A DNA stretch of 64,000 nucleotides from Pseudonocardia sp. (GTDB lineage Bacteria; Actinomycetota; Actinomycetes; Mycobacteriales; Pseudonocardiaceae): NCBI GenBank assembly GCA_025869365.1, contig JAOZVV010000180.1:1-64000 (forward strand), written 5' to 3'. Below, one piece after another: positions 9,225 through 47,513 of this stretch. Each line of letters begins with the position of its first letter. Position 1 is the first letter of the stretch. A model generated the notes under the pieces. It saw nothing but the letters and a program-made list of their open reading frames with translations, was not told where the DNA came from and ran no database searches. Made by a program: the position numbers and the translations under genes.

Positions 9225-10076
9225 CTACGCAGCTCTGCGGGCGGACCCCAGGACGCCCGCCACCGCGGACGTCGTGCTCGCCAGCGTCTCCGGCGGGAGC
9301 CCGCGCCTGCTGTGCACCGCGACCGGCAGGGGTGCGGCCGCGGGCAGGTCGGCCCGTTCGACGAGACCCTCGGGCGTGTGGCCCATCGTCGCCAGCAGCG
9401 CGACGCCGAGGCCGGCCCGGGCCGCGGCCAGCACACCGGCCAGATAGGCCGCCTCGCACGCGACCGTGACCGCGCTCCCGGCGCCCGTGAGGGTCGAGAC
9501 CGCGCGGTCCCGCAGCGCGCAGGGTGCGTCGAGCCCGACCAGTGGCACCGGCCCGGCGGGCGGCTCCCAGCCCGGCGCCGCGTACCAGCGCACCTCGAGC
9601 AGGCCGGCGGTGGCGGAGCGCTCGTTCGCGGGGGGTGTGAACAGCAGCGCGAGGTCCAGGTCACCGCGGTCCAGCGCCTCGCGCAGCCCGGTCCCGCGGT
9701 CGAGCCGGTACCGCACGCTGCCCCCCAGCGCGGAACTCAACCGGGGGAGCAGCTGGTCGGCGGCGTGTTCGGTGGACCCGACGCTCAGCTCGCGGGCGGT
9801 CGGCGCGGCGAGCCGGGCGAGCACGTCGTCGTGGATGCTCAGCATCCGGCGGGCCTCGACCAGCAGCGTCTCACCGGCGGGGGTGAGGCGGGAGGCGCGG
9901 CCCGCCCGGTGCAGGAGCGCCGTCCCGCAGGCGCTCTCCAGCCGCTTGACGTGGTCGCTCACCGTGGGCTGGCTGACGTGCAGGGCCGCCGCGGCCCGGT
10001 GGAACCCGCCACACTCCGCGACCGCCACGAAGCTGCGGAGCGGCACGACGTCGAGGGTGCGGGTCTGTGAGGACAC
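9225..10076 (-). CDS. LysR-family transcriptional regulator
   Basis: LysR HTH (VPLRSFVAVAECGGFHRAAAALHVSQPTVSDHVKRLE); GTG start proposed at 10076; divergent from the monooxygenase/ABC operon. Confidence 0.88.
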   Translation of the reverse strand: MSSQTRTLDVVPLRSFVAVAECGGFHRAAAALHVSQPTVSDHVKRLESACGTALLHRAGRASRLTPAGETLLVEARRMLSIHDDVLARLAAPTARELSVGSTEHAADQLLPRLSSALGGSVRYRLDRGTGLREALDRGDLDLALLFTPPANERSATAGLLEVRWYAAPGWEPPAGPVPLVGLDAPCALRDRAVSTLTGAGSAVTVACEAAYLAGVLAAARAGLGVALLATMGHTPEGLVERADLPAAAPLPVAVHSRRGLPPETLASTTSAVAGVLGSARRAA

Positions 10077-10179: not shown

Positions 10180-10202
10180 ACCGATCGGATTCCCTGATCG
10201 GT
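10180..10202. promoter_or_regulatory. Candidate LysR operator (ACCGATC-N9-GATCGGT)
   Basis: Perfect 7-bp dyad in the divergent lysR/leader intergenic region. Confidence 0.4.
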
Positions 10203-10257
10203 AGTGATCGGAAGCCCGAGTTGGACGACAGTGACGGCGAGGTGACACGATCGTGCC

Positions 10258-10398
10258 ATGTCGTCGACCCGCGTCCTCGTGTCGCTCACCCTTTCGGGTG
10301 CCGACCGTGCGCGTGGTCCGTTCCTCGGCCTGACCCGCCGGCTCGCGGTCGATCTCGCCCGCACCTCCACCGCGACGTGTCGTCGCGGCCTCTGCTGA
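10258..10398 (+). CDS. Putative Cys-sensing leader peptide (46 aa)
   Basis: MSSTRVLVSLTLSGADRARGPFLGLTRRLAVDLARTSTATCRRGLC*; matches actinobacterial TRR/SRR-x-x-VDLxRxxSxxC leader pattern; upstream of sulfur-type operon. Confidence 0.7.
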   Translation: MSSTRVLVSLTLSGADRARGPFLGLTRRLAVDLARTSTATCRRGLC

Positions 10399-10473
10399 CG
10401 CCCCACCGGCGTTCCAGCGGTCCCTCCGTGGACCCGACCTCACCCTGATCTCCCCGCCGACACCCGTGCGCGT

Positions 10474-10495
10474 CGGTGCGCGATGGCGCGCACCG
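10474..10495 (+). promoter_or_regulatory. Perfect 9-bp hairpin (CGGTGCGCG-ATGG-CGCGCACCG) between leader peptide and first structural gene
   Basis: Direct reading; candidate attenuator/RBS-sequestering element. Confidence 0.5.
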
Positions 10496-10548
10496 GCGCG
10501 CTCGCCGGTGTCCGCGGGAGATCTCCCCCTTCCGTGAAAGGACGAGCC

Positions 10549-11895
10549 ATGGCCCGTCAGCTCAAGCTCGGTGCCGTCCTCATGGGCGTCGGCGGCCCCG
10601 GACAGCACGACGTCTGGACGCACCCCGAGATCCCCGGCGACGCCAGCGTCGACATCGACTGGTACATCGCGCGGGCCCGGCAGGCGGAGGCGGCGCTGTT
10701 CGACCTCGTGTTCATCGTGGACAGCGCCTTCATCACCCCGGACTCCCCGCCGCACTACCTCGCCCGGCTGGAGCCGTTCACCCTGCTCTCCGCGCTCGCG
10801 GTCACGACCCGCAACGTCGGGCTCGTCGGCACGGTGAGCACCAGCTACAACAGCCCGTTCAACCTGGCCCGGCGGTTCGCCTCGCTGGACGTGATCAGCC
10901 GCGGGCGCGCCGGGTGGAACGTCGTCGCCACGGGGGACGGCGGCACCGCCGCGAACTACGGCCTGGACGAGCACTACGACCACCCCACCCGCTACGCGCG
11001 GGCGCTCGAGTCGGTCCGGGTCTGCCAGGGCCTGTGGGACTCCTACGAGGACGACGCCTTCCCCCATGACGTGGCGAGCGGGGTCTTCGTCGATCCCTCC
11101 CGCCAGCACCGCCTCGACCACTCCGGTGAGCACTTCCGCGTCCGCGGCCCGCTGAACCTGATCCGGTCCCCGCAGGGACAACCGGTCATCTTCCAGGCCG
11201 GGAACTCCGAGGAGGGACGCGATCTGGGCGCGTCGATCGGGGACGGCATCTTCACCCACCAGGCGACGATCGAGGAGGGGGTGGCCTTCGCCCGGGAGAT
11301 CCGCGAGCGCGCCGCGGCGAAGGGTCGCGACCCGCAGCACCTCCGGATCATGCCGGGGGTCGAACCGATCGTCGCGGACACCGACGCCCAGGCCCGGGAG
11401 ATCGAGGACCGGCGGCGCGGCGACCGGGACTTCGCCAAGGACCTGGCCCAGTTCGGGCGGCCCTTCGGGTGGCACGACTTCGGCCGCTACGACCTCGACG
11501 CCCCGTTCCCGGACGTCTCCCGCCTGGGGCACAACAACTTCGGCAGCCAGACCGCCACCATCGTGCGGGTCGCGAAGGAGGAGGGGCTGACGCTGCGGCA
11601 GACCGTGCGGCGCTTCTCCGGCCCGCTCCCGTCCCCGTTCGTGGGCAGCGCGGAGACGGTCGCGGACCGGATCCAGGAGTGGTTCGAGGCCGGTGCGCTC
11701 GACGGGGTGAACATCCACGTCACCGTGCCCGGCGCCTTCGCCCGGTTCACCGACGAGGTGCTGCCGATCCTGCGTGCCCGGGGTCTGGTCCGGTCCGCCT
11801 ACGACTCGACGACCCTGCGCGGCAACCTCGGTCTGCCGGTGCCCCCCAACGTCCACACCGTCGCTCGCGAGCGGTCCGCGCGCCTGAGCGCATGA
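10549..11895 (+). CDS. NtaA/SnaA/DszA-family FMN-dependent monooxygenase
   Basis: Family sequence (YNSPFNLARRFASLDVISRGRAGWNVV, LWDSYEDDAF, PQGQPVIFQAGNSEEGRDL). Confidence 0.9.
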   Translation: MARQLKLGAVLMGVGGPGQHDVWTHPEIPGDASVDIDWYIARARQAEAALFDLVFIVDSAFITPDSPPHYLARLEPFTLLSALAVTTRNVGLVGTVSTSYNSPFNLARRFASLDVISRGRAGWNVVATGDGGTAANYGLDEHYDHPTRYARALESVRVCQGLWDSYEDDAFPHDVASGVFVDPSRQHRLDHSGEHFRVRGPLNLIRSPQGQPVIFQAGNSEEGRDLGASIGDGIFTHQATIEEGVAFAREIRERAAAKGRDPQHLRIMPGVEPIVADTDAQAREIEDRRRGDRDFAKDLAQFGRPFGWHDFGRYDLDAPFPDVSRLGHNNFGSQTATIVRVAKEEGLTLRQTVRRFSGPLPSPFVGSAETVADRIQEWFEAGALDGVNIHVTVPGAFARFTDEVLPILRARGLVRSAYDSTTLRGNLGLPVPPNVHTVARERSARLSA

Positions 11896-11918
11896 GCCAC
11901 ACCCACCATCGGAGAGAC

Positions 11919-13481
11919 ATGAGATTCCTCAGTGACAGACGGCCCTCGGCCGCTGTGGTGGCCGCCGTCGTGGCGGTGATCGCCATGGTCGTGGCGGGGT
12001 GTGGCGGCTCGGCCTCCGGCGGGTCCGCGTCGGATTCCACGATCAGGTGGGGGGTCAAGCAGATCCAAGCGAACTGGGACCCCATCGTCACCGGATCGAC
12101 CGGGGCGACCGTCTACCTGACCCCGATCTACGAGTCGTTGTTCACCGTGGACGGGCAGCGCAAGGTGGTGCCGGCGTTGGCGTCGGGTTATGAGTACAAC
12201 GCCGCCGGTGACCAGATCACGATCAGGCTGAAGCCGGGGTTGACGTTCCAGGACGGGTCCCCGGTGGATGCGGAGGCGGTGAAGTTCACCATCGAGCGGA
12301 TCAAGACCCAGGAGAACTCGGCGCTGAAGGGGTCGTACAGCAACGTCAGGTCCGCGACCGTGGTCGATCCGCTCACGGTGCGGTTGGACCTGGGGCAGCA
12401 GGACTACCAGATCCCGTACCTGCTGGCGGTGCGGGGCGGGATGCTGCCGAGCAAGGCCGCGGCCCAGGCGGACCCCGCCAAGCTGAACTCGGCGGCCCCG
12501 GTGGGCGCGGGCCCGTTCAAGGTGGTGTCCTACGACCCGGAGTCGAAGATCGTCCTGGAGAAGTGGGACGGGTACTGGGACGCGGCGTCGATCAAGGTGA
12601 ACCGGATCGAGATCAACTTCGGGATCGACCCGTCGACGCTGGTCGCGGGCCTGCGGTCGGGGGTCTACAACTGGGCCCAGATCGACCCGCAGCAGGCCGA
12701 CGAGGCGAGGAAGGCCGGGTTCGACGTGCTCGCGAGCGTCGACCGGCACTGGTCCACGCAGTTCCTGAGCCTGAACACGAACAAGGCACCGTTCACCGAC
12801 CCCGCCGTGGCGGAGGCCATCCGCTACGCGGTCAACCCGGACGAGTACGCCACGAAGCTCGGCTTCGGCCTGGCCGTGCCCGCCCGCCAGCTCTTCCCCG
12901 AGGGACATCCGGCCTATGTCCCGGCTTTGGACGCCGAGCATCCCTACGACCCGGCGAAGGCGCGGGAGATCCTGGCGAAGGCGGGCTACACCGACGGCGC
13001 GGTGTCCTTCGACCTGTCCGGGATGGCCGTCCTGTCCGGCCAGGTCGCCGAGGTGCTGCAGCAGCAGCTCAAGGCCGTCGGCATCACGGCGAACATCACC
13101 CTGCTCGACCAGGCCAACTGGGGCAAGGGCTACTTCGGCAAGCAGCAGGCGGCCTCGGTCTACGGCTACGTGGGCCGGGACTCGCACGTGCAGGCGCTGA
13201 CGGAGCACTTCGACGCGGGCGGGGTGCTGAACCTGAGCTCACCGACCACCTCGCCGCAGTTCCAGGAGGCGCTCGAAGCGGTGCGGGCCACCCCGATCGA
13301 TGCTCCGGACTACGAGGCGAAGCTGCAGGCGGCGGCACAGGCGGGCTACGAGAACGGCTCCACCGTCGCCCTGTACAGCGTCCCGAGCGTCGTCGCCAAG
13401 GACAGGTCGATCTCGGACCCGCCCGCGATCGACGGCTACCAGAGCTGGAAGGGCGTCCAGTTCACCCCCGGGCCGCAGTGA
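11919..13481 (+). CDS. ABC transporter substrate-binding lipoprotein, family 5 (SBP-1)
   Basis: Lipobox (MVVAGCGG); SBP family-5 features; upstream of two permeases and two ATPases. Confidence 0.9.
   Translation: MRFLSDRRPSAAVVAAVVAVIAMVVAGCGGSASGGSASDSTIRWGVKQIQANWDPIVTGSTGATVYLTPIYESLFTVDGQRKVVPALASGYEYNAAGDQITIRLKPGLTFQDGSPVDAEAVKFTIERIKTQENSALKGSYSNVRSATVVDPLTVRLDLGQQDYQIPYLLAVRGGMLPSKAAAQADPAKLNSAAPVGAGPFKVVSYDPESKIVLEKWDGYWDAASIKVNRIEINFGIDPSTLVAGLRSGVYNWAQIDPQQADEARKAGFDVLASVDRHWSTQFLSLNTNKAPFTDPAVAEAIRYAVNPDEYATKLGFGLAVPARQLFPEGHPAYVPALDAEHPYDPAKAREILAKAGYTDGAVSFDLSGMAVLSGQVAEVLQQQLKAVGITANITLLDQANWGKGYFGKQQAASVYGYVGRDSHVQALTEHFDAGGVLNLSSPTTSPQFQEALEAVRATPIDAPDYEAKLQAAAQAGYENGSTVALYSVPSVVAKDRSISDPPAIDGYQSWKGVQFTPGPQ
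12117..12604 (+). repeat. 488-bp tract identical to 22394..22881 (copy 1, inside SBP-1)
   Basis: Manual base-by-base alignment at constant offset 10277. Confidence 0.92.
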
Positions 13482-14476
13482 TGGCCACCGCGACGAGGTC
13501 CGACGTGCTGCGTGGCCGCGGCAGGCGCCTGGCGGTGTCGGTCGGCAAGCCGCTGGCCGTGTTCGTGCCGGTGTTCCTGCTCGGCACGTTCTTCACCTTC
13601 CTGCTCGGTCACCTTTCGGGCCGTAGCCCCGCCTACATCCAGCTGGGGGACGCGGCGACCCCGGAGGCCGTCGCCGCCGTCGAGCACGAGTGGGGCCTGG
13701 ACCGGCCCTTCGCAGTGCAGTACGTCGACTGGCTCGGGGACATCCTGCACTTCGACCTGGGCGAGAGCTGGTTCAACGGGCACAGCGTCGCCGAGGTGCT
13801 GCTGGACCGGGCGGTGATCACCCTCTCCGCCGCAGGGGTGGCACTGGTCATCGGCGTCGTCGGCGGGTTCGCCCTCGGCGCGCTCGCGGCGCGCTTCCAC
13901 GCCACCTGGGTCGACCGGGCGGTCACCGGCTTCACCACGACGATCTCCGTGCTCCCGCCGTTCGTCGTCGGCATCGCGCTGATCGCGGTGTTCGCCGTGA
14001 GCCTGGACCTGCTGCCCGCGGCCGGCTACGTGCCGCTCGAGGCAGGCCTGGGGCCGTGGCTGTCCCACCTGCTCCTCCCGGCGCTCGCGCTCAGCTTCGA
14101 CACCGTCGCCGACGTCGCGCGCCAGCTGCGGGACGGGCTCGTGTCGGCGAAGCGGGAGAACTACGTGACCGGGGCCCTCGTGCGCGGTCTCGGGCCCCGC
14201 CGGATCTTCTTCGTGCACGTGCTGCGCAACGGCGTCGGGCCCGCCCTGGCCGTGCTCGGGCTGAAGTTCCCGGCGCTGCTCGGCGGCGCCGTCGTGACCG
14301 AGGCGATCTTCGGGCTGTCCGGCTACGGGGTGTTCGCCACCCAGGCGGCCATCCGCGGTGACGTGCCTGCGGTGCAGGGCGTGCTCGTCGTGTCCGTGGT
14401 GCTCGTCGTGGTGTTCAACCTCGTCGTCAACATCGTCCTCAACCGGCTCTCGCCGGCCGCGGCCAGGGGGTTCTGA
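13481..14476 (+). CDS. ABC transporter permease (DppB-like)
   Basis: Multi-TM with RQLRDGLVSAKRENYVTGALVRGLG permease signature; ATG overlaps SBP-1 stop. Confidence 0.9.
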   Translation: MATATRSDVLRGRGRRLAVSVGKPLAVFVPVFLLGTFFTFLLGHLSGRSPAYIQLGDAATPEAVAAVEHEWGLDRPFAVQYVDWLGDILHFDLGESWFNGHSVAEVLLDRAVITLSAAGVALVIGVVGGFALGALAARFHATWVDRAVTGFTTTISVLPPFVVGIALIAVFAVSLDLLPAAGYVPLEAGLGPWLSHLLLPALALSFDTVADVARQLRDGLVSAKRENYVTGALVRGLGPRRIFFVHVLRNGVGPALAVLGLKFPALLGGAVVTEAIFGLSGYGVFATQAAIRGDVPAVQGVLVVSVVLVVVFNLVVNIVLNRLSPAAARGF

Positions 14477-14479
14477 GAG

Positions 14480-15349
14480 ATGATCAAGGTATTGCTCCGC
14501 CTGCCGAGTGCCCGGATCGCCCTCGGGGTGCTGCTGGTCATCGCCGTGATCACGGTCTTCGGTCCGGTGCTGGCGCCCTACGATCCGCTGCAGGGCTCCG
14601 ATCTCACCCTCGCGCCTCCGTCGGCCGGGCACTGGCTCGGCACGGACTACACCGGCCGCGACGTGCTCAGCCGGATCCTGGCGGGCGCACCGCTGAGCAT
14701 CGTGAGCACGTGCCAGGTGGCGGGGATCGCCCTGGTGCTCGGGACGATCCCGGGCATCCTCTCGGTGTACCTCGGGTCGGTCTTCGAGTGGGTCTCGCTG
14801 CGCCTCGTCGACACCCTCGTCGCGCTGCCGTTCCTGGTGTTCGCGGTGGCCATGACCGCGCTGCTCGGCAACGGCATCACCCAGGCCATGATCGCGGTGG
14901 GGCTGCTGGTCGCGCCGCTGTTCTACCGGGTGGCCCGGGCCGCGACGCTGACCGTCGCCCGGTCCCAGTACGTCGAGGCGGCGCTGCTCGCCGGGGCGTC
15001 GACCGGGTGGATCGTGCGTAGGCACGTGTGGGGGAAGGTCCTGCCGCCCATCGCGATCACCCTGGCGACCACCCTCGGCGTGGGGCTCGTGGTGATCTCC
15101 AGCCTGACCTTCCTCGGCATCGGCGTGCAGCCGCCCACCCCGACCTGGGGCGGGATCCTCGCCTCGGACCTGGACTACCTGCCGCAGAAGGCCTACGCCC
15201 CGGTCTTCCCGGCCGTGATCATCCTCGTCACCGTGCTGGCGTTCAACATGCTCGCCGACGCCATCCGGGACGCCGCCGGCCAGTCCGGCCGCGTGCTGGT
15301 CGGGGCCAGGACGGCCAAGGCCAACCGGGCCCGGAGGGTCACGGCATGA
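14480..15349 (+). CDS. ABC transporter permease (DppC-like)
   Basis: HWLGTDYTGRDVLSRILAGAPLS and EAALLAGASTGWIVRRHVWGKVLP signatures. Confidence 0.9.
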   Translation: MIKVLLRLPSARIALGVLLVIAVITVFGPVLAPYDPLQGSDLTLAPPSAGHWLGTDYTGRDVLSRILAGAPLSIVSTCQVAGIALVLGTIPGILSVYLGSVFEWVSLRLVDTLVALPFLVFAVAMTALLGNGITQAMIAVGLLVAPLFYRVARAATLTVARSQYVEAALLAGASTGWIVRRHVWGKVLPPIAITLATTLGVGLVVISSLTFLGIGVQPPTPTWGGILASDLDYLPQKAYAPVFPAVIILVTVLAFNMLADAIRDAAGQSGRVLVGARTAKANRARRVTA

Positions 15350-16263
15350 CGGCCCCCGACACCACCGAAGGAGACCTGATGACGCAGGCCACCGTGGTCG
15401 AGAGCGGCCCCGCCGCCGAACCCGTCGCGGACGCCCACCCGGAGGACGTGCTGGTCCTCCACGACGTCCGCATCCACGACGACCTGAGCGACACCGAGCT
15501 GGTGCACGGCGTCAGCCTGCGGCTGGGCCGCGGGCGGGTGGTGGGCATCGTCGGTGAGTCCGGCAGCGGCAAGTCACTCACCTGCCGGGCCGTCCTCGGC
15601 ATCCTGCCGGACCTGATCGAGGTCTCCGGCGGCTCGATCACGCTGCTGGGGCGCGACGCCGCCACGTTCACACGGCAGGACTGGACGGCGGTGCGGGGCG
15701 CCGGAGTCGGTGCGGTGTTCCAGGACCCGGCCTCGTACCTGAACCCGTCCATCCCCGTGGGCAAGCAGCTCCGGGAGGTGCTGCGGGTGCGGGGCGGCCT
15801 GTCCCGCAAGGACGCGCACCGGCGGGCCGTCGAGCTGTTCGACGCCGTGCACCTGCGGGATCCCGAGCGGGTGTACCGGCAGTACGTGCACGAGCTGTCC
15901 GGCGGGATGCTGCAACGGGTGCTCATCGCGATCGCGATCTCGCTCGATCCCGAGATCCTCATCGCGGACGAGGCGACGACCGCGCTCGACGCCACCGTGC
16001 AGGCCGAGATCCTCGACCTGCTCGCCGAGCTCACCGAGCGGCTCGGGCTGGCGCTCGTGCTCGTCTCGCACGACCTGGCCGTGGTGGCCCAGCTCTGCGA
16101 CGAGGTGCTGGTCCTGCGGGACGGACACGTCGTCGAGCAGGGGCCGACCGCACGGATCCTGCACGACCCGCAGGAGGACTACACCCGGCTCCTCGTCGCC
16201 GAGCACGAGCAGTACGGGCTCGAGCGCTACCTGACGCCGACGGGGGAGCCGACCCGTGTCTGA
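15346..16263 (+). CDS. ABC transporter ATP-binding protein (DppD-like)
   Basis: Walker A GESGSGKS, ABC signature LSGGM, Walker B ILIADE. Confidence 0.92.
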   Translation: MTAPDTTEGDLMTQATVVESGPAAEPVADAHPEDVLVLHDVRIHDDLSDTELVHGVSLRLGRGRVVGIVGESGSGKSLTCRAVLGILPDLIEVSGGSITLLGRDAATFTRQDWTAVRGAGVGAVFQDPASYLNPSIPVGKQLREVLRVRGGLSRKDAHRRAVELFDAVHLRDPERVYRQYVHELSGGMLQRVLIAIAISLDPEILIADEATTALDATVQAEILDLLAELTERLGLALVLVSHDLAVVAQLCDEVLVLRDGHVVEQGPTARILHDPQEDYTRLLVAEHEQYGLERYLTPTGEPTRV

Positions 16264-17122
16264 GCCCCGCCCCATCCTCGAGATCGAGGGCCTCGACGTC
16301 GCGTTCGGACGCGGCCCCGCGCGCAAGGAGGCCCTGTCCGGCGCCACCCTGAGCCTGCTGCCGGGCGAGGCCGTCGGGGTCATCGGCGAGTCCGGGGCGG
16401 GGAAGTCCACGCTCGCCCGCGCCGTGCTCGGGCTGGCCCCGGTCACGGCGGGCTCGGTGCGCGTCGTCGGGCGGGACGTGGCCCGGCTGTCCCGCCGGGA
16501 ACGCCGCGAGTTCGGCCGCAGCGGCGTGGCGCAGTACGTGTTCCAGGACCCGCTGCGCAGCCTGGACCCGGACCAGACCGTGCAGGCCGCCGTGGCGGAG
16601 CCGCTGGAGATCCGGGGGGAGCTCAACCGCGCCGAGATCGCGGCGGCGGTGCGGGCGCAGTTCGCCGCCGTGGAGCTCGACGAGTCGCTGCTCGACCGGT
16701 TCCCCGCCCAGCTCTCCGGCGGGCAGCGCCAGCGCGTCGCCGTCGCGAGGGCGCTGGTCACCGCGCCGCGGCTGCTGCTGCTCGACGAGCCGGTCAGCGC
16801 GCTCGACTCGGCGAACCGGGTCCGGATCCTGCAGCTGCTGGAGCGGCTGCGGGCCACCACGGACATCACGCTGCTGTTCATCTCGCACGATCTCGGGTCC
16901 ATCGCCGGCGTCACCGACCGGACGATCGTGCTGCACGACGGCCGGATCGTTGAGGACGGACCGACCGCCCGGGTCATCACCGCCCCCGAGCACCCGTACA
17001 CCCGGCTGCTCGTGGGCTCCGCGCCGACGCTCACCTCCGGTGCGGCGGACCGCGCCGTCCGCGCGCGGCTGCGGGCCGAGCTCGCCGCGGCGCAGCGGTC
17101 ACTCGCCGAGGCGGCGACATGA
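16256..17122 (+). CDS. ABC transporter ATP-binding protein (DppF-like)
   Basis: Walker A GESGAGKS, LSGGQ, Walker B LLLLDEP. Confidence 0.92.
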   Translation: MSEPRPILEIEGLDVAFGRGPARKEALSGATLSLLPGEAVGVIGESGAGKSTLARAVLGLAPVTAGSVRVVGRDVARLSRRERREFGRSGVAQYVFQDPLRSLDPDQTVQAAVAEPLEIRGELNRAEIAAAVRAQFAAVELDESLLDRFPAQLSGGQRQRVAVARALVTAPRLLLLDEPVSALDSANRVRILQLLERLRATTDITLLFISHDLGSIAGVTDRTIVLHDGRIVEDGPTARVITAPEHPYTRLLVGSAPTLTSGAADRAVRARLRAELAAAQRSLAEAAT

Positions 17123-18162
17123 CGTCCCGACACCCTCACCCGGAGGTCCCCGTGACCGCAACGCCTGCCGAACCCCCCGTCCGCGGGCTGTCCTTCTTCC
17201 TCACCGTCCCGACCGACCCGCGACCGGGGCGGGTCTACGCGGACGCGCTGGACTCGGTCCGGCTCGCCGAACAGCTCGGGTTCGAGACCGCCTGGGTCGC
17301 CGAGGGCCACTTCCAGTTCCTCGGCCTGCCCGCCGCGCTGTCCTTCCTCGCCGCGGCCACCCAGGCCGCGCACCGGATCCGGCTCGGCACCGCGGTGCTG
17401 CCGCTGGCGTTCGACAACCCGATCCGGATCGCCGAGACGGCGGCGTTCGTCGACGCGCTGAGCGGCGGGCGGCTCGAGCTGGGGATCGGCAAGAGCAACC
17501 CGATGTCGACGGCGATCTTCAGCGCGTTCGGCCTGTCCGAGGGCGACCGCGAGACGCTCTACACCGACGCCCTGGACGGGTTCCGGCGCGCGATCGAGCA
17601 CGGCGTGTCGGCGGACGGGAAGCAGGTCCCGCTCTACCCGCCGCCCGCCGGTCTCGCCGACCGGCTGTGGCAGGCGACCGGCAACCCGCGCACCGCGGCC
17701 GCGATCGGACGGGCGGGTGACGGCCTGCTGCTCTTCCGGCTGACCCCGCAGGGCGATCCCGGCCAGGTCCAGTCCGCGCTGATCGACGACTACCTGGGTG
17801 CGCTCCCCGCGGGCGCCGAGTCGCGCATCGGGATCTCCCGGGGGGTGCTGCCGGCGGCGTCCCGCGCGGAGGCGATCGCGCTGGTCGCCGCGGAGCTGGA
17901 GCAGCACCCGGCGCGCTTCCGCGTTCCGGCGGGACCCGCACCGAGCAGCCCCGAGGAGTACCTCGACGCCCTCAACGTCAAGTACGGCAGCCCGGACGAC
18001 GTCATCGAGCAGCTCTCCCGCGACGAGGCCTTCGTCCGCTCCACCGACCGGCTGTTCTCCCTGCCGCTCTCCGCGGGGACCACCGCGTTCCGCGAGGCCC
18101 TGGCGCTGGTGGCGGACGAGGTCCACCCGCGGGTCCGGCCCGCCGTCGCCCACGCCGCATGA
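17119..18162 (+). CDS. LLM class flavin-dependent oxidoreductase
   Basis: Luciferase-like TIM-barrel sequence (LAEQLGFETAWVAEGHF, RIRLGTAVLPL, LSGGRLELGIGKSN). Confidence 0.88.
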   Translation: MTSRHPHPEVPVTATPAEPPVRGLSFFLTVPTDPRPGRVYADALDSVRLAEQLGFETAWVAEGHFQFLGLPAALSFLAAATQAAHRIRLGTAVLPLAFDNPIRIAETAAFVDALSGGRLELGIGKSNPMSTAIFSAFGLSEGDRETLYTDALDGFRRAIEHGVSADGKQVPLYPPPAGLADRLWQATGNPRTAAAIGRAGDGLLLFRLTPQGDPGQVQSALIDDYLGALPAGAESRIGISRGVLPAASRAEAIALVAAELEQHPARFRVPAGPAPSSPEEYLDALNVKYGSPDDVIEQLSRDEAFVRSTDRLFSLPLSAGTTAFREALALVADEVHPRVRPAVAHAA

Positions 18163-18187
18163 CCCTCGACCGACAGGAGCACCGACC

Positions 18188-19024
18188 ATGACCCAGACCC
18201 TGGACCCCGCCACGCGTCACGCCGAGTGGTCGGCCTGGCGGGCCGAGAACGAACGGCGCCGCCGCGACCCGTACGGCTACCTCGCCTACCGCGCCGTGCA
18301 CTTCCTGGAGACCGAGCCCCGCACCTTCCCCGGCGTGCCCGGGGTGTGGACGACGGGCCCCGACGGACCGGTCGTCGAGCTCGGCGCGGGGGAGTCCCTG
18401 CTCGTCGAGGACACCGAGCGGACCGGCACGATCGTGTTCGGGCCCGTCCGCGAGCGGGAGTTCCGCCGGGCCGCGCGGACCGGGGACGTCGTGCTGGAGC
18501 TGTCCCGCCGCGGTGGCCGCGACCTGCTCCGGCCGCTCGACCCCACCTACCGGCTGCGCGCGGACTACGTCGAGACCCCCGCCTTCGAGCACGACCCCGG
18601 GTGGATCCTCCCCGCCGTGCTCGAGCGGTATCCGCAGGGGCGGCCGCAGCAGGTCCGCGCGGCCGTCGCGGGCATCGAGCACACCCACGAGGCCGTGGGC
18701 GAGGTCGTCTTCACGGTCGACGGGGCCGAGCACCGGCTCGTCGTGTTCGGCCGCGACGACGACCCCGGCTCCGGGATCCTGCTGTTCCGGGACGCCACCA
18801 GCGGGGTCACCACCTACGCGGCGAGCCGGTCGCTCGCCCTCCCGCTGCCGGGTGAGGGGGACTCCGACCTCGTTCTGGACTTCAACCGCGCGGGCAACCT
18901 GCAGTGCGCCTACACCGACCATGCACCGTGCCCGCTCGCGCCCGCTCGCAACCGGCTCCCGTTCGCGGTCGAGGCGGGCGAGCGGACACCCGTGCTGCGC
19001 GGCGGGCGGGAGGCGGACCGATGA
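18188..19024 (+). CDS. DUF1684 domain-containing protein
   Basis: DUF1684 C-terminal signature (LDFNRAGNLQCAYTDHAPCPLAPARNRLPFAVEAGE). Confidence 0.85.
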   Translation: MTQTLDPATRHAEWSAWRAENERRRRDPYGYLAYRAVHFLETEPRTFPGVPGVWTTGPDGPVVELGAGESLLVEDTERTGTIVFGPVREREFRRAARTGDVVLELSRRGGRDLLRPLDPTYRLRADYVETPAFEHDPGWILPAVLERYPQGRPQQVRAAVAGIEHTHEAVGEVVFTVDGAEHRLVVFGRDDDPGSGILLFRDATSGVTTYAASRSLALPLPGEGDSDLVLDFNRAGNLQCAYTDHAPCPLAPARNRLPFAVEAGERTPVLRGGREADR

Positions 19025-19803
19025 CCGCGGCGGCGGAGAGCCCCGCCGTCACCGGGTGGAACGCGGTGTGGAGCGAGCCCGACGGGGTGGTCCCGCGGGG
19101 GACCCTGGTCGTGCTCCCGGGGCGCGGTGAGCAGGCCGGCGTCTACGCCCGCCTGGGCCGGCGGCTCTCCGCGGACGGCTACCGGGTGCTGCTCGTCCCC
19201 GACCCCACCGTCGACGCCGCACGGACCACGGAGCAGGTCCGGGCACTGCTCGCGGACGCGGGATCCGGGCCGCACCCGCGCGTGCTGGTCGGCTCGGACA
19301 CCGGGGCGCTCTTCGCGGCGGCGCTCGTCGCCGACGGCTTCCCCGGCGTGGACGCGCTGGTGCTGGCCGGTCTGCCCGTCCACCGGGCGGCGGGGCCCGC
19401 GGGATGGGCGGAGGAGCTGGACGCGCGGACCGCCTGCCCGGTGCACCGCGACGTGCTCGACGGCGCCACCGCGCTCCGCCGGGGCGCGCTCGCCGAGCCC
19501 GTCCCGGAGGAGTGGGTCCGGGCCGCGGTCCCGGAACGGATCGGGGTACCGGTGCTCGGGCTGCACGGCACGGCCGACCCGCTCGGGGCGGTCGACTCCG
19601 TCCGCGACTGGTACGCCCGCCTCGGCGAGGCCGAGCTGGTGGCGATCGTGGGCGGCCGCCACGACGCGCTGAACGACCAGAGCCATCGCACGGCGGCCGC
19701 GACCGTCGTGCTGTTCCTGGAGCGGCTGCGAGCGGGGCTGCCCGAGATCGCCCGCCGCGAGCCGGTCCGGGCCCGGGCGCAGGGCCGACCGGTACCGGCC
19801 TGA
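19021..19803 (+). CDS. Alpha/beta hydrolase
   Basis: Alpha/beta hydrolase-like (VLPGRGEQAGVYARLGRRL, VLVGSDTGALFAAAL, HGTADPLGAVD). Confidence 0.7.
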   Translation: MTAAAESPAVTGWNAVWSEPDGVVPRGTLVVLPGRGEQAGVYARLGRRLSADGYRVLLVPDPTVDAARTTEQVRALLADAGSGPHPRVLVGSDTGALFAAALVADGFPGVDALVLAGLPVHRAAGPAGWAEELDARTACPVHRDVLDGATALRRGALAEPVPEEWVRAAVPERIGVPVLGLHGTADPLGAVDSVRDWYARLGEAELVAIVGGRHDALNDQSHRTAAATVVLFLERLRAGLPEIARREPVRARAQGRPVPA

Positions 19804-21171
19804 GTGGACGACGACGAGAGGAACGGCATGAGCCGCAAGATCCACCTGGCCCTGCACCCGTACGGGGTGGGCGGTCCCGGGCAGCACGGGTTGTGGAAGG
19901 ACCCGAGCATCGCCAAGGACGCCAGCATCGACATCGACTACTACATCCGGCAGGCGAAGGCGGCCGAGCACGCGTTGTTCGACGCGCTCTTCATCGTCGA
20001 CAGCCAGTTCATCAACGCGACCTACCCGGCGCACTACCTCAACCGCCTCGAACCGCTGACGCTGCTCTCCGCGGTCGCCACGCACACCACGCACCTCGGT
20101 CTCGTCGGCACGCTGAGCTCGACGTACAACTCGCCGTTCAACCTGGCGCGGCGGTTCGCCTCGCTCGACCACATCAGCCGTGGCCGGGCCGGCTGGAACG
20201 TCGTCACCAGCTTCGACACCGGCACCAGCCGCAACTACGGGCTCGACGAGCACCTCGACTACCCGACCCGCTACGGGCGGGCGCTGGAGTCGGTGCAGGT
20301 CGTGCAGGGCCTGTGGGACTCCTACGAGGACGACGCCTTCCCGGCGGACGTCGAGCGCGGCGTGTTCGTCGACCCGGACAAGCTGCACGCGCTGGACCAC
20401 GTCGGCGAGCACTTCCGGGTCACCGGACCGCTGAACCTCTCGCGCTCGCCGCAGGGCCAGCCGGTGATCTTCCAGGCGGGCGTGTCGGAGGAGGGGCGGA
20501 CCCTCGCGGCGCAGGTCGCCGAGGGCATCTTCGCCCCCGGCGGCACGTTCGACGAGGCCCGCGCCTACTACGCCGACATCAAGCGGCGCATCGCCGCGGC
20601 GGGCCGGGAGCCCGACCACGTCACGGTCCTCATCCACGGTGGCCCGATCGTCCGCGGCACGGACTCGGCGGCCCGGCGGCGCGCCCGGGAGATCGACGAC
20701 GAGGACCGGGACTTCGACCGCAGCCTCGCGCTGCTGGGCCGGGCCTTCGGCGCGCACGACTTCAGCCGCTACGACCTGGACGCGCCCTTCCCGGACGTGG
20801 CCCATCTCGCGGCGAACGGCGGACGGACCGGGGCCGCGGCGATCATCGCGCGGGCCGGGGCCGAGGGGCTCACCCTGCGCCAGGTGGCCGAGGCGTTCGG
20901 CGAGCGCGGGGAGCCGCCGTTCGTGGGGGCGCCGTCCACGGTGGCCGACACCATCGCGCGCTGGTTCGAGGCGGGCGCGTTCGACGGCCTCAACCTGGCG
21001 TTCCGCAACGACGAGGACCTGGCGTGGTTCGTCGACGGCGTGGTGCCGGAGCTGCAGCGACGCGGTCTGTTCCGCACCGCGTACGAGGCGGAGACGTTGC
21101 GGGGGAACCTCGGTCTGCCGATCCCGGCGAACCGCCACACCCGCGCCCGCACCCTGGTGGACGCGCGATGA
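19804..21171 (+). CDS. NtaA/SnaA/DszA-family FMN-dependent monooxygenase (second copy)
   Basis: Paralogous to 10549..11895 (YNSPFNLARRFASLDHISRGRAGWNVV); alternative internal ATG at 19828. Confidence 0.9.
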   Translation: MDDDERNGMSRKIHLALHPYGVGGPGQHGLWKDPSIAKDASIDIDYYIRQAKAAEHALFDALFIVDSQFINATYPAHYLNRLEPLTLLSAVATHTTHLGLVGTLSSTYNSPFNLARRFASLDHISRGRAGWNVVTSFDTGTSRNYGLDEHLDYPTRYGRALESVQVVQGLWDSYEDDAFPADVERGVFVDPDKLHALDHVGEHFRVTGPLNLSRSPQGQPVIFQAGVSEEGRTLAAQVAEGIFAPGGTFDEARAYYADIKRRIAAAGREPDHVTVLIHGGPIVRGTDSAARRRAREIDDEDRDFDRSLALLGRAFGAHDFSRYDLDAPFPDVAHLAANGGRTGAAAIIARAGAEGLTLRQVAEAFGERGEPPFVGAPSTVADTIARWFEAGAFDGLNLAFRNDEDLAWFVDGVVPELQRRGLFRTAYEAETLRGNLGLPIPANRHTRARTLVDAR

Positions 21172-22202
21172 GCCCGCGCTTCCGGCTGGGTTTCCTCACC
21201 CACGTGCAGGGCCGCGACGGGGGAGCCGGCGGGGCCGCGCAGGCCTACCGCAACGCCCAGGAGCTCTTCGTCGTCGCCGACGAGCTGGGCTTCGACGTCG
21301 GCTGGGTGGCCCAGCACCACGTCTCCGCCGGGGGCGGCGGCCTGTCCTCGCCGTGGCCCTTCCTGGCCCACGCGGCCGCCCGCACCACCCGGATCCGGCT
21401 GGCCACCGCCGTCACGATCCTGCCGCTGGAGGACCCGATCCGGCTGGCCGAGGACGTCTCGGTCGTCGACACGCTCAGCGGGGGGCGGGTCGAGATCGGG
21501 GTCGGGAGCGGCTACAACGACGTCGAGTACGCCGCCTTCGGGCGCGACGTCGCCCGGAAGCGCGAGCTGACGAGCGAGAACCTCGCGATCCTGCGCGCGG
21601 CACTGGCGAACGAGGAGGTCGGCGCCGCGGGGTTCACCGTCCAGCCGTCGGCCGCGGACTTCACCGACCGGATCTGGCAGGGGGTGTTCAGCGCTGCCGG
21701 CGCCGGGTACGCGGCGGCCGCCGGTTCGCAGCTGCTGCTCAACCGCGCCACCTACGGCCACGACGCCCCGACCGACGAGGTGCAGCGCCCTTGGGCCGAC
21801 GCCTATCTCGCCGCGTGGAAGGGGCCGTGGGCACCCCGCATCGGGTTGTCCCGCTTCGTCTACCCCGCTGCGGACCGGCGCACGGCGCTCGCGCAGATCG
21901 GCGACGACGTGCTCCGCGCGGCGCAGCGCTTCGGCGAGCGCGGGGGCTTCCCCGCCGGTCTGGGCGTCGACGAGGCGCTCCGCCGGTTCCACTCGTTCTA
22001 CGGGCACCCGGACGAGATCGTCGCCGAGCTGCAACGGGAACGGGTCCTCCCGGTCGCCACCGACCTGATCACCCAGTTCAACCCGGCCGTGCCGGACCAG
22101 GACTCCGCGATCCGGGCACTCGAGCTGATCGCCACGCAGATCGCCCCCGCGCTGGGCTGGCGTCCCGCGGACCGCGTCCCTTCCCTCATCGGAGAGTCAT
22201 GA
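21168..22202 (+). CDS. LLM class flavin-dependent oxidoreductase
   Basis: Luciferase-like (VVADELGFDVGWVAQHHV, RIRLATAVTILPLEDPIRLAEDVSVVDTLSGGRVEIGVGSG). Confidence 0.88.
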   Translation: MSPRFRLGFLTHVQGRDGGAGGAAQAYRNAQELFVVADELGFDVGWVAQHHVSAGGGGLSSPWPFLAHAAARTTRIRLATAVTILPLEDPIRLAEDVSVVDTLSGGRVEIGVGSGYNDVEYAAFGRDVARKRELTSENLAILRAALANEEVGAAGFTVQPSAADFTDRIWQGVFSAAGAGYAAAAGSQLLLNRATYGHDAPTDEVQRPWADAYLAAWKGPWAPRIGLSRFVYPAADRRTALAQIGDDVLRAAQRFGERGGFPAGLGVDEALRRFHSFYGHPDEIVAELQRERVLPVATDLITQFNPAVPDQDSAIRALELIATQIAPALGWRPADRVPSLIGES

Positions 22203-23755
22203 GAGTCGTCAGCAGGCGGTCCTCGGCAGCCGTCGTCGCCGCCCTGGTGGCCGTGGTGGGGCTGCTCGTCGTGGGCTGTGGGGGCTCCGCGGGCGGCGGG
22301 GCCTCGTCGGACGCGACGATCCGCTGGGGGACGAAGCAGATCCAGGCGAACTGGGACCCGATCGTCACGGGGTCCACCTCCGCGACCATCCTGCTGACCC
22401 CGATCTACGAGTCGTTGTTCACCGTGGACGGGCAGCGCAAGGTGGTGCCGGCGTTGGCGTCGGGTTATGAGTACAACGCCGCCGGTGACCAGATCACGAT
22501 CAGGCTGAAGCCGGGGTTGACGTTCCAGGACGGGTCCCCGGTGGATGCGGAGGCGGTGAAGTTCACCATCGAGCGGATCAAGACCCAGGAGAACTCGGCG
22601 CTGAAGGGGTCGTACAGCAACGTCAGGTCCGCGACCGTGGTCGATCCGCTCACGGTGCGGTTGGACCTGGGGCAGCAGGACTACCAGATCCCGTACCTGC
22701 TGGCGGTGCGGGGCGGGATGCTGCCGAGCAAGGCCGCGGCCCAGGCGGACCCCGCCAAGCTGAACTCGGCGGCCCCGGTGGGCGCGGGCCCGTTCAAGGT
22801 GGTGTCCTACGACCCGGAGTCGAAGATCGTCCTGGAGAAGTGGGACGGGTACTGGGACGCGGCGTCGATCAAGGTGAACCGCATCGAGATCAACTTCGGG
22901 ATCGACTCGTCCACGCTCGTGGCGGGCCTGCAGTCGGGGGTCTACAACTGGGCCCAGATCGACCCGCAGCAGGCCGGGGAGGCGAAGAAGGCCGGGTTCG
23001 ACATCCTGGCGAGCACCGACCGGCACTGGACCTCGATCTTCCTGAGCCTCAACGTGAACAAGGCGCCGTTCACGGATCCGGCGGTGCGTGAGGCCGTTCG
23101 CTACGCGGTCGACCCGGACGAGTTCGCCACGAAGCTCGGCTTCGGCCTGGGGCAACCCGCGCACCAGCCGTTCCCCGAGGGGCACCCGGCGTACGTCCCC
23201 GCGCTCGACGCCGAGCATCCCTACGACCCGGCGAGGGCGCGGGACATCCTGGCGAAGGCCGGGTACGCGGACGGCGCGATCACGTTCGACCTGAACGGCA
23301 TCGCAGGGAACTTCGAGCAGGCGGCCGAGGTGCTGCAGGGCCAGCTCAAGGCCGTCGGGATCATCGCGAACATCCGGCTGCAGGACCAGGCGAACTGGGG
23401 CAAGGGCTACTTCGGCAAGCAGCAGGCGGCCTCGGTCTACGGCTACGTGGGGCGGGACTCGCACGTGCAGGCGTTGACGGAGCACTTCGACGCGGGCGGG
23501 GTCTTGAACCTGAGCTCGCCGACCACCTCGCCGCAGTTCCAGGAGGCGCTCGAAGCGGTGCGGGCCACTCCGATCGACTCGCCGGACTACGAGGCGAAGC
23601 TGCAGGCGGCGGCACAGGCGGGCTACGAGAACGGTTCGACGGTCTCGCTCTATGCCTACCCGAGCGTGGTGGCGAAGGACAGGTCGATCTCGGACCCGCC
23701 CGCGATCGACGGCTACCAGAGCTGGAAGGGCGTGCAGATCACGCGGACCGACTGA
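22199..23755 (+). CDS. ABC transporter substrate-binding lipoprotein, family 5 (SBP-2)
   Basis: Lipobox (LLVVGCGG); near-duplicate of SBP-1 with identical internal tract. Confidence 0.9.
   Translation: MRVVSRRSSAAVVAALVAVVGLLVVGCGGSAGGGASSDATIRWGTKQIQANWDPIVTGSTSATILLTPIYESLFTVDGQRKVVPALASGYEYNAAGDQITIRLKPGLTFQDGSPVDAEAVKFTIERIKTQENSALKGSYSNVRSATVVDPLTVRLDLGQQDYQIPYLLAVRGGMLPSKAAAQADPAKLNSAAPVGAGPFKVVSYDPESKIVLEKWDGYWDAASIKVNRIEINFGIDSSTLVAGLQSGVYNWAQIDPQQAGEAKKAGFDILASTDRHWTSIFLSLNVNKAPFTDPAVREAVRYAVDPDEFATKLGFGLGQPAHQPFPEGHPAYVPALDAEHPYDPARARDILAKAGYADGAITFDLNGIAGNFEQAAEVLQGQLKAVGIIANIRLQDQANWGKGYFGKQQAASVYGYVGRDSHVQALTEHFDAGGVLNLSSPTTSPQFQEALEAVRATPIDSPDYEAKLQAAAQAGYENGSTVSLYAYPSVVAKDRSISDPPAIDGYQSWKGVQITRTD
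22394..22881 (+). repeat. 488-bp tract identical to 12117..12604 (copy 2, inside SBP-2)
   Basis: Manual base-by-base alignment at constant offset 10277. Confidence 0.92.
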
Positions 23756-47439: not shown

Positions 47440-47513
47440 TGCCCCCGGTGAGACTCGAACTCACACTGGACGGATTTTGAGTCCGCTGCCTCTGCCGATT
47501 GGGCTACGGGGGC
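47440..47513 (-). tRNA. tRNA-Leu (anticodon CAA)
   Basis: GCCCCCG/CGGGGGC acceptor, GTGAG-TTCGAGT-CTCAC T-arm, anticodon arm GCGGA-CTCAAAA-TCCGT; 5-nt variable loop; no encoded CCA. Confidence 0.9.

Follow-up and report, generated by a model that had tools for sequence, protein, structure and literature searches.

A putative cysteine-sensing leader peptide, a member of NF042934, ahead of an organosulfur operon in Pseudonocardia

The window analysed here, a stretch of 64,000 nucleotides that its nearest relatives assign to Pseudonocardia, carries a 46-codon open reading frame (10258..10398, + strand) that is a genuine leader gene, and the leader at this locus is an ordinary representative of NCBIfam NF042934, a family known but so far unexplained. 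Comparison with its relatives makes it likely that the peptide senses cysteine and controls the operon that follows; this estimate covers the sensing part. In the mechanism proposed, transcription would start at the ATG at 10258 and the first ribosome would translate the leader at once. With Cys-tRNA plentiful, the ribosome would pass the single UGU at codon 41, end six codons later and leave, exposing a naked C-rich spacer, and the operon would then be shut off early, most likely by Rho. With cysteine short, the ribosome would pause once UGU occupies the A site, perhaps aided by contacts between the exit tunnel and the R-VDL-R segment, and expression of the 13-kb operon for uptake and monooxygenation of sulfur compounds would follow. 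The cysteine response, the help from the nascent chain and Rho as the output are the parts of this scheme that we infer. If it holds, the organosulfur operon belongs to a cysteine regulon of Pseudonocardia that is genome-wide and sensed by ribosomes.

The leader reading frame, its orthologs and its promoter

The reading frame runs from the ATG at 10258 to a TGA at 10396-10398 and encodes MSSTRVLVSLTLSGADRARGPFLGLTRRLAVDLARTSTATCRRGLC, with Cys codons at positions 41 (TGT) and 46 (TGC). The first-pass annotation had described a 46-residue frame with Cys as its last codon and another five codons earlier, and both coordinates and codons are as it gave them. Its proposal that this is a leader peptide with a family motif is also supported, since the product matches NF042934 (cis_reg_atten, 'putative leader peptide') and is conserved in all eight orthologs examined. 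The score of 27.2 bits is just over the curated cut-off of 27, at the edge of the family; the leader thus combines a score above the cut-off with the position of a short frame ahead of sulfur-metabolism genes in Actinomycetes. It shares the core motif and the position of the Cys with the family, and at 46 residues is longer than its kin (median 24 among leaders with a clear -10 start). A search against Rfam gave no match. Small reading frames are common in GC-rich DNA, and the region could on that ground be an ordinary 5' untranslated region with a frame arisen by chance. This is highly improbable, as a strict form of the motif (R[RL]x[VI]D[LFQ]xR-N5-C-short-stop) occurs once in the 64,000-nt window and in none of 150 dinucleotide shuffles, and the frame is conserved in every Pseudonocardia ortholog examined.

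In these eight orthologs (L043-L049 and L094), the leader is retained 41-155 nt upstream of the monooxygenase gene. An alignment of the window with seven of them, leaving out the more diverged L048 (strain MH-G8), keeps the upstream block CGAGTTGGAC, a CAC-ATC block, the codons of the core peptide and the Shine-Dalgarno (SD) sequence. A diverged leader (e.g., LTSRRWLDQGRIAATLCS) precedes more distant orthologs from Nakamurella, Phytohabitans, Asanoa, Frankia, Actinokineospora and a Frankiales metagenome-assembled genome, and orthologs from Microbacterium, Nocardioides, Rhodococcus and Pseudomonas have no leader with such a pattern. Conservation of the frame ahead of orthologous operons, which the first-pass annotation had predicted together with that of the terminal Cys, is therefore confirmed for the frame alone. 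The terminal Cys46 (UGC, 10393..10395, + strand) is replaced by Arg in P. pini, whose monooxygenase is 91% identical to that of the window and whose leader ends in GLR-stop, and it is absent elsewhere; the sole other ortholog with a near-terminal Cys, L049, has one unrelated to Cys46. The importance given to the last codon falls with this, and Cys46 is ruled out as the sensor.

Upstream of the leader, a candidate -35 element (TTGGAC, 10221..10226, + strand) lies within CGAGTTGGAC and is invariant in the eight aligned Pseudonocardia sequences; GTTGGAC is present in distant orthologs as well. A candidate -10 element (CACGAT, 10246..10251, + strand), part of the conserved CAC-ATC block, ends 6 nt before the ATG, with TTGGAC 19 nt further upstream. 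Across the family, TANNNT stands 5-8 nt (peak 7) before in-frame starts in 24 of 177 cases and before out-of-frame starts in 1 of 182. The spacing of the -10 element to the ATG at 10258 agrees with a leaderless transcript such as mycobacteria have, and the transcript probably begins at this ATG. Further upstream lies a dyad, CCGATC-N19-GATCGG (10181..10211, unstranded), whose centre is at about -62 relative to the start site proposed here. Its pairing is retained in all six orthologs with sequence at this position, and some changes inside the dyad affect both sides; it is a probable operator, with a LysR regulator as the candidate to act there. A divergent LysR-family regulator gene (9225..10076, - strand, start approximate) is also found in six orthologs; gene and dyad together suggest a second control, at the level of transcription.

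The UGU codon and the conserved peptide core

The codon proposed as the sensor is Cys41 (UGU, 10378..10380, + strand), nine codons past the Asp of the VDL motif. The Cys at this register is UGU in 76 of 78 Pseudonocardia leaders, compared with 3 of 41 for the other Cys codons between motif and stop and 29 of 282 (10%) in coding sequence of the same loci. The same is seen class-wide, where the register Cys is UGU in 47 of 47 leaders and other Cys codons from the motif on in 22 of 90, and in all 8 leaders of distant orthologs. The corresponding p-values, about 1e-25 and 6e-20, take the sequences to be more independent than they are, since related ones are among those counted. The codon choice was not selected by the search, since the profile by which leaders were found is a protein profile. 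UGU at a fixed register thus appears to be a sharp codon rule across the family, and apparently an unreported one; neither the fixed UGU nor its register was found in the literature searched. UGU is presumably decoded only by wobble. No tRNA-Cys is among the 30 tRNAs listed for the draft genome, and in the window a tRNA-Leu (CAA) gene lies at 47440-47513 on the minus strand.

The core of the peptide, RLAVDLAR (10339..10362, + strand), contains Arg(-4) at 10339, Asp(0) at 10351 and Arg(+3) at 10360. All three residues are present in each of 81 Pseudonocardia leaders found by HMM or by orthology, an invariance inflated by ascertainment, as the profile rewards conserved residues (the codon choice is unaffected). 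They are encoded in this set by six, two and four different codons, respectively. The peptide itself is therefore under selection, as the residues stay fixed while their codons vary. Leaders of a few distant orthologs have lost Arg(-4), and those of a few have lost Arg(+3).

In only 3 of the 81 leaders is the Cys of the register missing, and all three have a stop codon exactly there. This variant, RRHVDLCRTAxAx-stop, occurs in the Pseudonocardia genome of the window (L039, C87:9956-9997) and at L201 and L212. A pattern search that required the stop at this position finds it in 8 of 64 Pseudonocardia genomes; the unbiased count is the 3 of 81. UGC occupies the register at just two loci, L199 and L211, in two Pseudonocardia genomes, both ahead of a sulfite reductase gene. 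A hairpin that presents UGU in its loop (CCGCGACG-UGU-CGUCGCGG) was considered and rejected. It is kept in most orthologs, broken in CNS-139 and shows no pair-preserving changes, and is probably a by-product of the conserved codons.

When the A site holds UGU, the residue in the P site is 12 positions from R(-4), 8 from D(0) and 5 from R(+3). This matches the spacing of W12, D16 and I19 from P24 in E. coli TnaC (PMC10941005), and a TnaC-like reading would have the nascent peptide arrest the ribosome in response to a small molecule and not to Cys-tRNA. The three leaders with a stop exactly at the UGU register are in keeping with such arrest. However, UGU specifically is kept there rather than any amino acid codon, which indicates decoding, and the match in spacing may be due to chance or to a shared constraint of the tunnel. 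We know of no ligand. On balance, arrest by a small molecule is unlikely, and the likeness to TnaC is treated as a lead that makes no claim to membership. TnaC resembles the leader in the way it works and has no homology to it; a stop codon occupies the A site there and a sense codon here, and the presumed signal is free amino acid in TnaC and starvation in the window leader.

Sensing by decoding of UGU remains the preferred reading. A bolder, tentative extension is that the whole NF042934 family acts as a nascent-chain-assisted single-codon sensor, in which R-VDL-R would slow the ribosome at a fixed register and the wobble-decoded UGU (rarely a stop) would supply the response to Cys-tRNA; a run of Cys codons would then be unnecessary. 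From the fixed UGU and its register follows a directly testable prediction on a single codon as an amino-acid sensor.

Spacer, stem and output step

The leader stop is followed by a C-rich, G-poor spacer (10399..10458, + strand), a candidate Rho loading region. The C-G skew of the 60 nt after the leader stop is 0.42 in the window, 0.22 in Pseudonocardia leaders and 0.19 class-wide, and in the comparison sets it drops to 0.01 in the sequence preceding the leader, 0.02 ahead of other genes and 0.07 past the stops of genes (0.22 vs 0.01, p about 2e-12). By its composition, the spacer looks as a Rho loading site would. In TnaC, the arrested ribosome keeps Rho off the Rho site (PMC10941005), and the Rho-sensitive region next to the end of that leader is likened to the candidate spacer here. 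Many paralogous leaders have short spacers, with a lower quartile of 69 nt, which may not give Rho enough room.

The first-pass annotation placed the switch further downstream, in a perfect 9-bp hairpin at 10474-10495 (CGGTGCGCG-ATGG-CGCGCACCG). The hairpin exists, but it is merely the tip of a 33-pair stem (10447..10523, + strand). In the corresponding reading, classical transcription attenuation, this stem would be a terminator whose formation is prevented by stalling in the leader. The stem is indeed very stable, with a folding z of -6.2 for the spacer; P. pini keeps 29 of the 33 pairs, two of them through changes on both sides; and a leader segment, GAUCUCGCCCGC, resembles the 5' arm of the stem. 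Against this, the stem has no terminator U-tract, and it is lineage-specific, occurring only in the window and P. pini among the orthologs examined. Spacer folding in the orthologs is weak (z of -0.3 to -2.0), with no significant fold in the six others, and supporting covariation is found neither in the 8-species alignment nor anywhere beyond P. pini. In addition, a ribosome paused at UGU would end about 54 nt short of the stem. No conserved intrinsic terminator with a U-tract and a competing hairpin is present, and a terminator role for the stem is quite improbable. The 9-bp hairpin is accordingly rejected as a conserved switch or terminator, and as a mobile repeat it is ruled out by its single copy in the genome. 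Of the annotation's account of stalling at Cys codons, UGU at Cys41 survives as the proposed sensor, whereas Cys46 and the hairpin do not. The loop of the hairpin holds an ATG at 10483 that is in frame with the monooxygenase; the conserved SD sequence points to 10549, which is thus taken as the real start.

Translational attenuation shares the sensing step with the preferred explanation and differs from it only in the output: as long as no ribosome is paused, the leader RNA would fold over the ribosome-binding site downstream, which pausing at UGU would set free. The literature on the cysA2 member of NF042934 speaks for this reading, as does a slight rise in predicted SD accessibility across 55 leaders with a ribosome at UGU (0.306 to 0.361, p = 0.035), compared with 0.316 (p = 0.57) at a control position of the ribosome. 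The gain is larger in short spacers. However, for the operon of the window the prediction moves only from 0.47 to 0.48, orthologs show no consistent gain from unmasking by a ribosome at UGU, and the 8-species alignment contains no conserved pairing between leader and SD. Masking of the SD by the leader at the window operon is thus a candidate that folding does not bear out. For the output step, Rho is narrowly preferred and still held tentatively, unmasking of the ribosome site is a serious but somewhat doubtful contender, and some other output is a less likely possibility.

Related leaders and the sulfur regulon

Mycobacterial members recovered in the class-wide search read LTKRRAVDLCRVAGCCCCCCSC and lie upstream of genes that, from their sequences, we take to be DUF4395 and cysA2. 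Canestrari and co-workers reportedly described translational attenuation by mycobacterial polycysteine leaders in 2020. Mycobacterial cys leaders without terminators had been predicted earlier, with Rho suggested (PMC1262725), and cysteine attenuation has been proposed for the polycysteine uORF at the cysA2 locus (PMC4633059). Two papers cite a demonstration of cysteine-responsive attenuation in M. smegmatis (PMC9031893; PMC13236596), and the latter describes a translational attenuation model for mycobacterial polycysteine leaders. The cysA2 leader shares the motif and the UGU register with the window leader, and the mycobacterial polycysteine leaderless uORFs (cysA2 and others) have Cys codons, sulfur genes and, probably, a leaderless start in common with it. 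They differ in that they carry a run of Cys codons, whereas the window leader has a single conserved one and no run near the stop; its downstream operon is also another one, and its spacer is long, with a lineage-specific stem. The leader is filed under NF042934 and not with the polycysteine leaders because just one Cys codon is conserved, Cys46 being species-specific. The cysA2 leader of mycobacteria belongs in one family with the unnamed NF042934 leaders, a homology that supports the sensing idea. The cysS leader uORFC-8-2 of Rhodobacterales (PMC8632094) also has Cys codons in a short uORF, but it is alphaproteobacterial, UGC dominates in it and an intrinsic terminator is present.

Of 198 Actinomycetes genomes sampled, 131 carry NF042934, and a sample drawn from the whole phylum gave matches in that class alone. 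A profile search of the Pseudonocardia genome itself gave about 13 leaders, mostly before sulfur genes (names partly assigned by eye). The genes downstream include sulfite reductase with CysD/CysN, a CysK-like protein, DUF4395 with a thiosulfate sulfurtransferase (rhodanese), MetY/MetX, TauD, SfnG-like and other luciferase-like monooxygenases, and an SBP_bac_5 transporter. By Pfam and NCBIfam, the first genes after 68 Pseudonocardia leaders include 13 luciferase-like monooxygenases, 8 sulfite reductases, 6 SBP_bac_5, 5 DszC/SfnB, 3 TauD, 3 OsmC and 2 rhodanese. This regulon context, the family match, the conservation in orthologs and the kinship with the mycobacterial cysA2 uORF all support the earlier suggestion that the leader regulates the downstream operon by cysteine or sulfur. 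Elsewhere in the same genome (L040, C169:20021 and 21382), two leaders flank an SfnG-type monooxygenase gene at a distance of 1.4 kb from each other, the second lying just past the gene.

The first gene of the operon in the window (10549..11895, + strand; TIGR03860) encodes an NtaA/DmoA-family FMN monooxygenase (YtnJ/MoxC-like), so that an NtaA-type enzyme does follow the hairpin as annotated, with its ATG at 10549. Its SD region, GAAAGG (10537..10542, + strand), is conserved in orthologs as GAAAGG/GAGAGG, and its closest solved structures are nitrilotriacetate monooxygenase and YtnJ/MoxC. YtnJ-type enzymes take part in the salvage of S-modified cysteines; such a role of the first enzyme would fit cysteine feedback. 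The rest of the putative co-directional operon (11896..23755, + strand) encodes two SBP_bac_5 proteins, permeases, ABC ATPases, luciferase-like monooxygenases, a DUF1684 protein and an alpha/beta hydrolase. A second NtaA-family monooxygenase in the same operon (19804-21168) is 60% identical to the first. The two SBP_bac_5 genes (11889-13478 and 22184-23752) share long identical stretches, a pattern that would fit a recent duplication or gene conversion.
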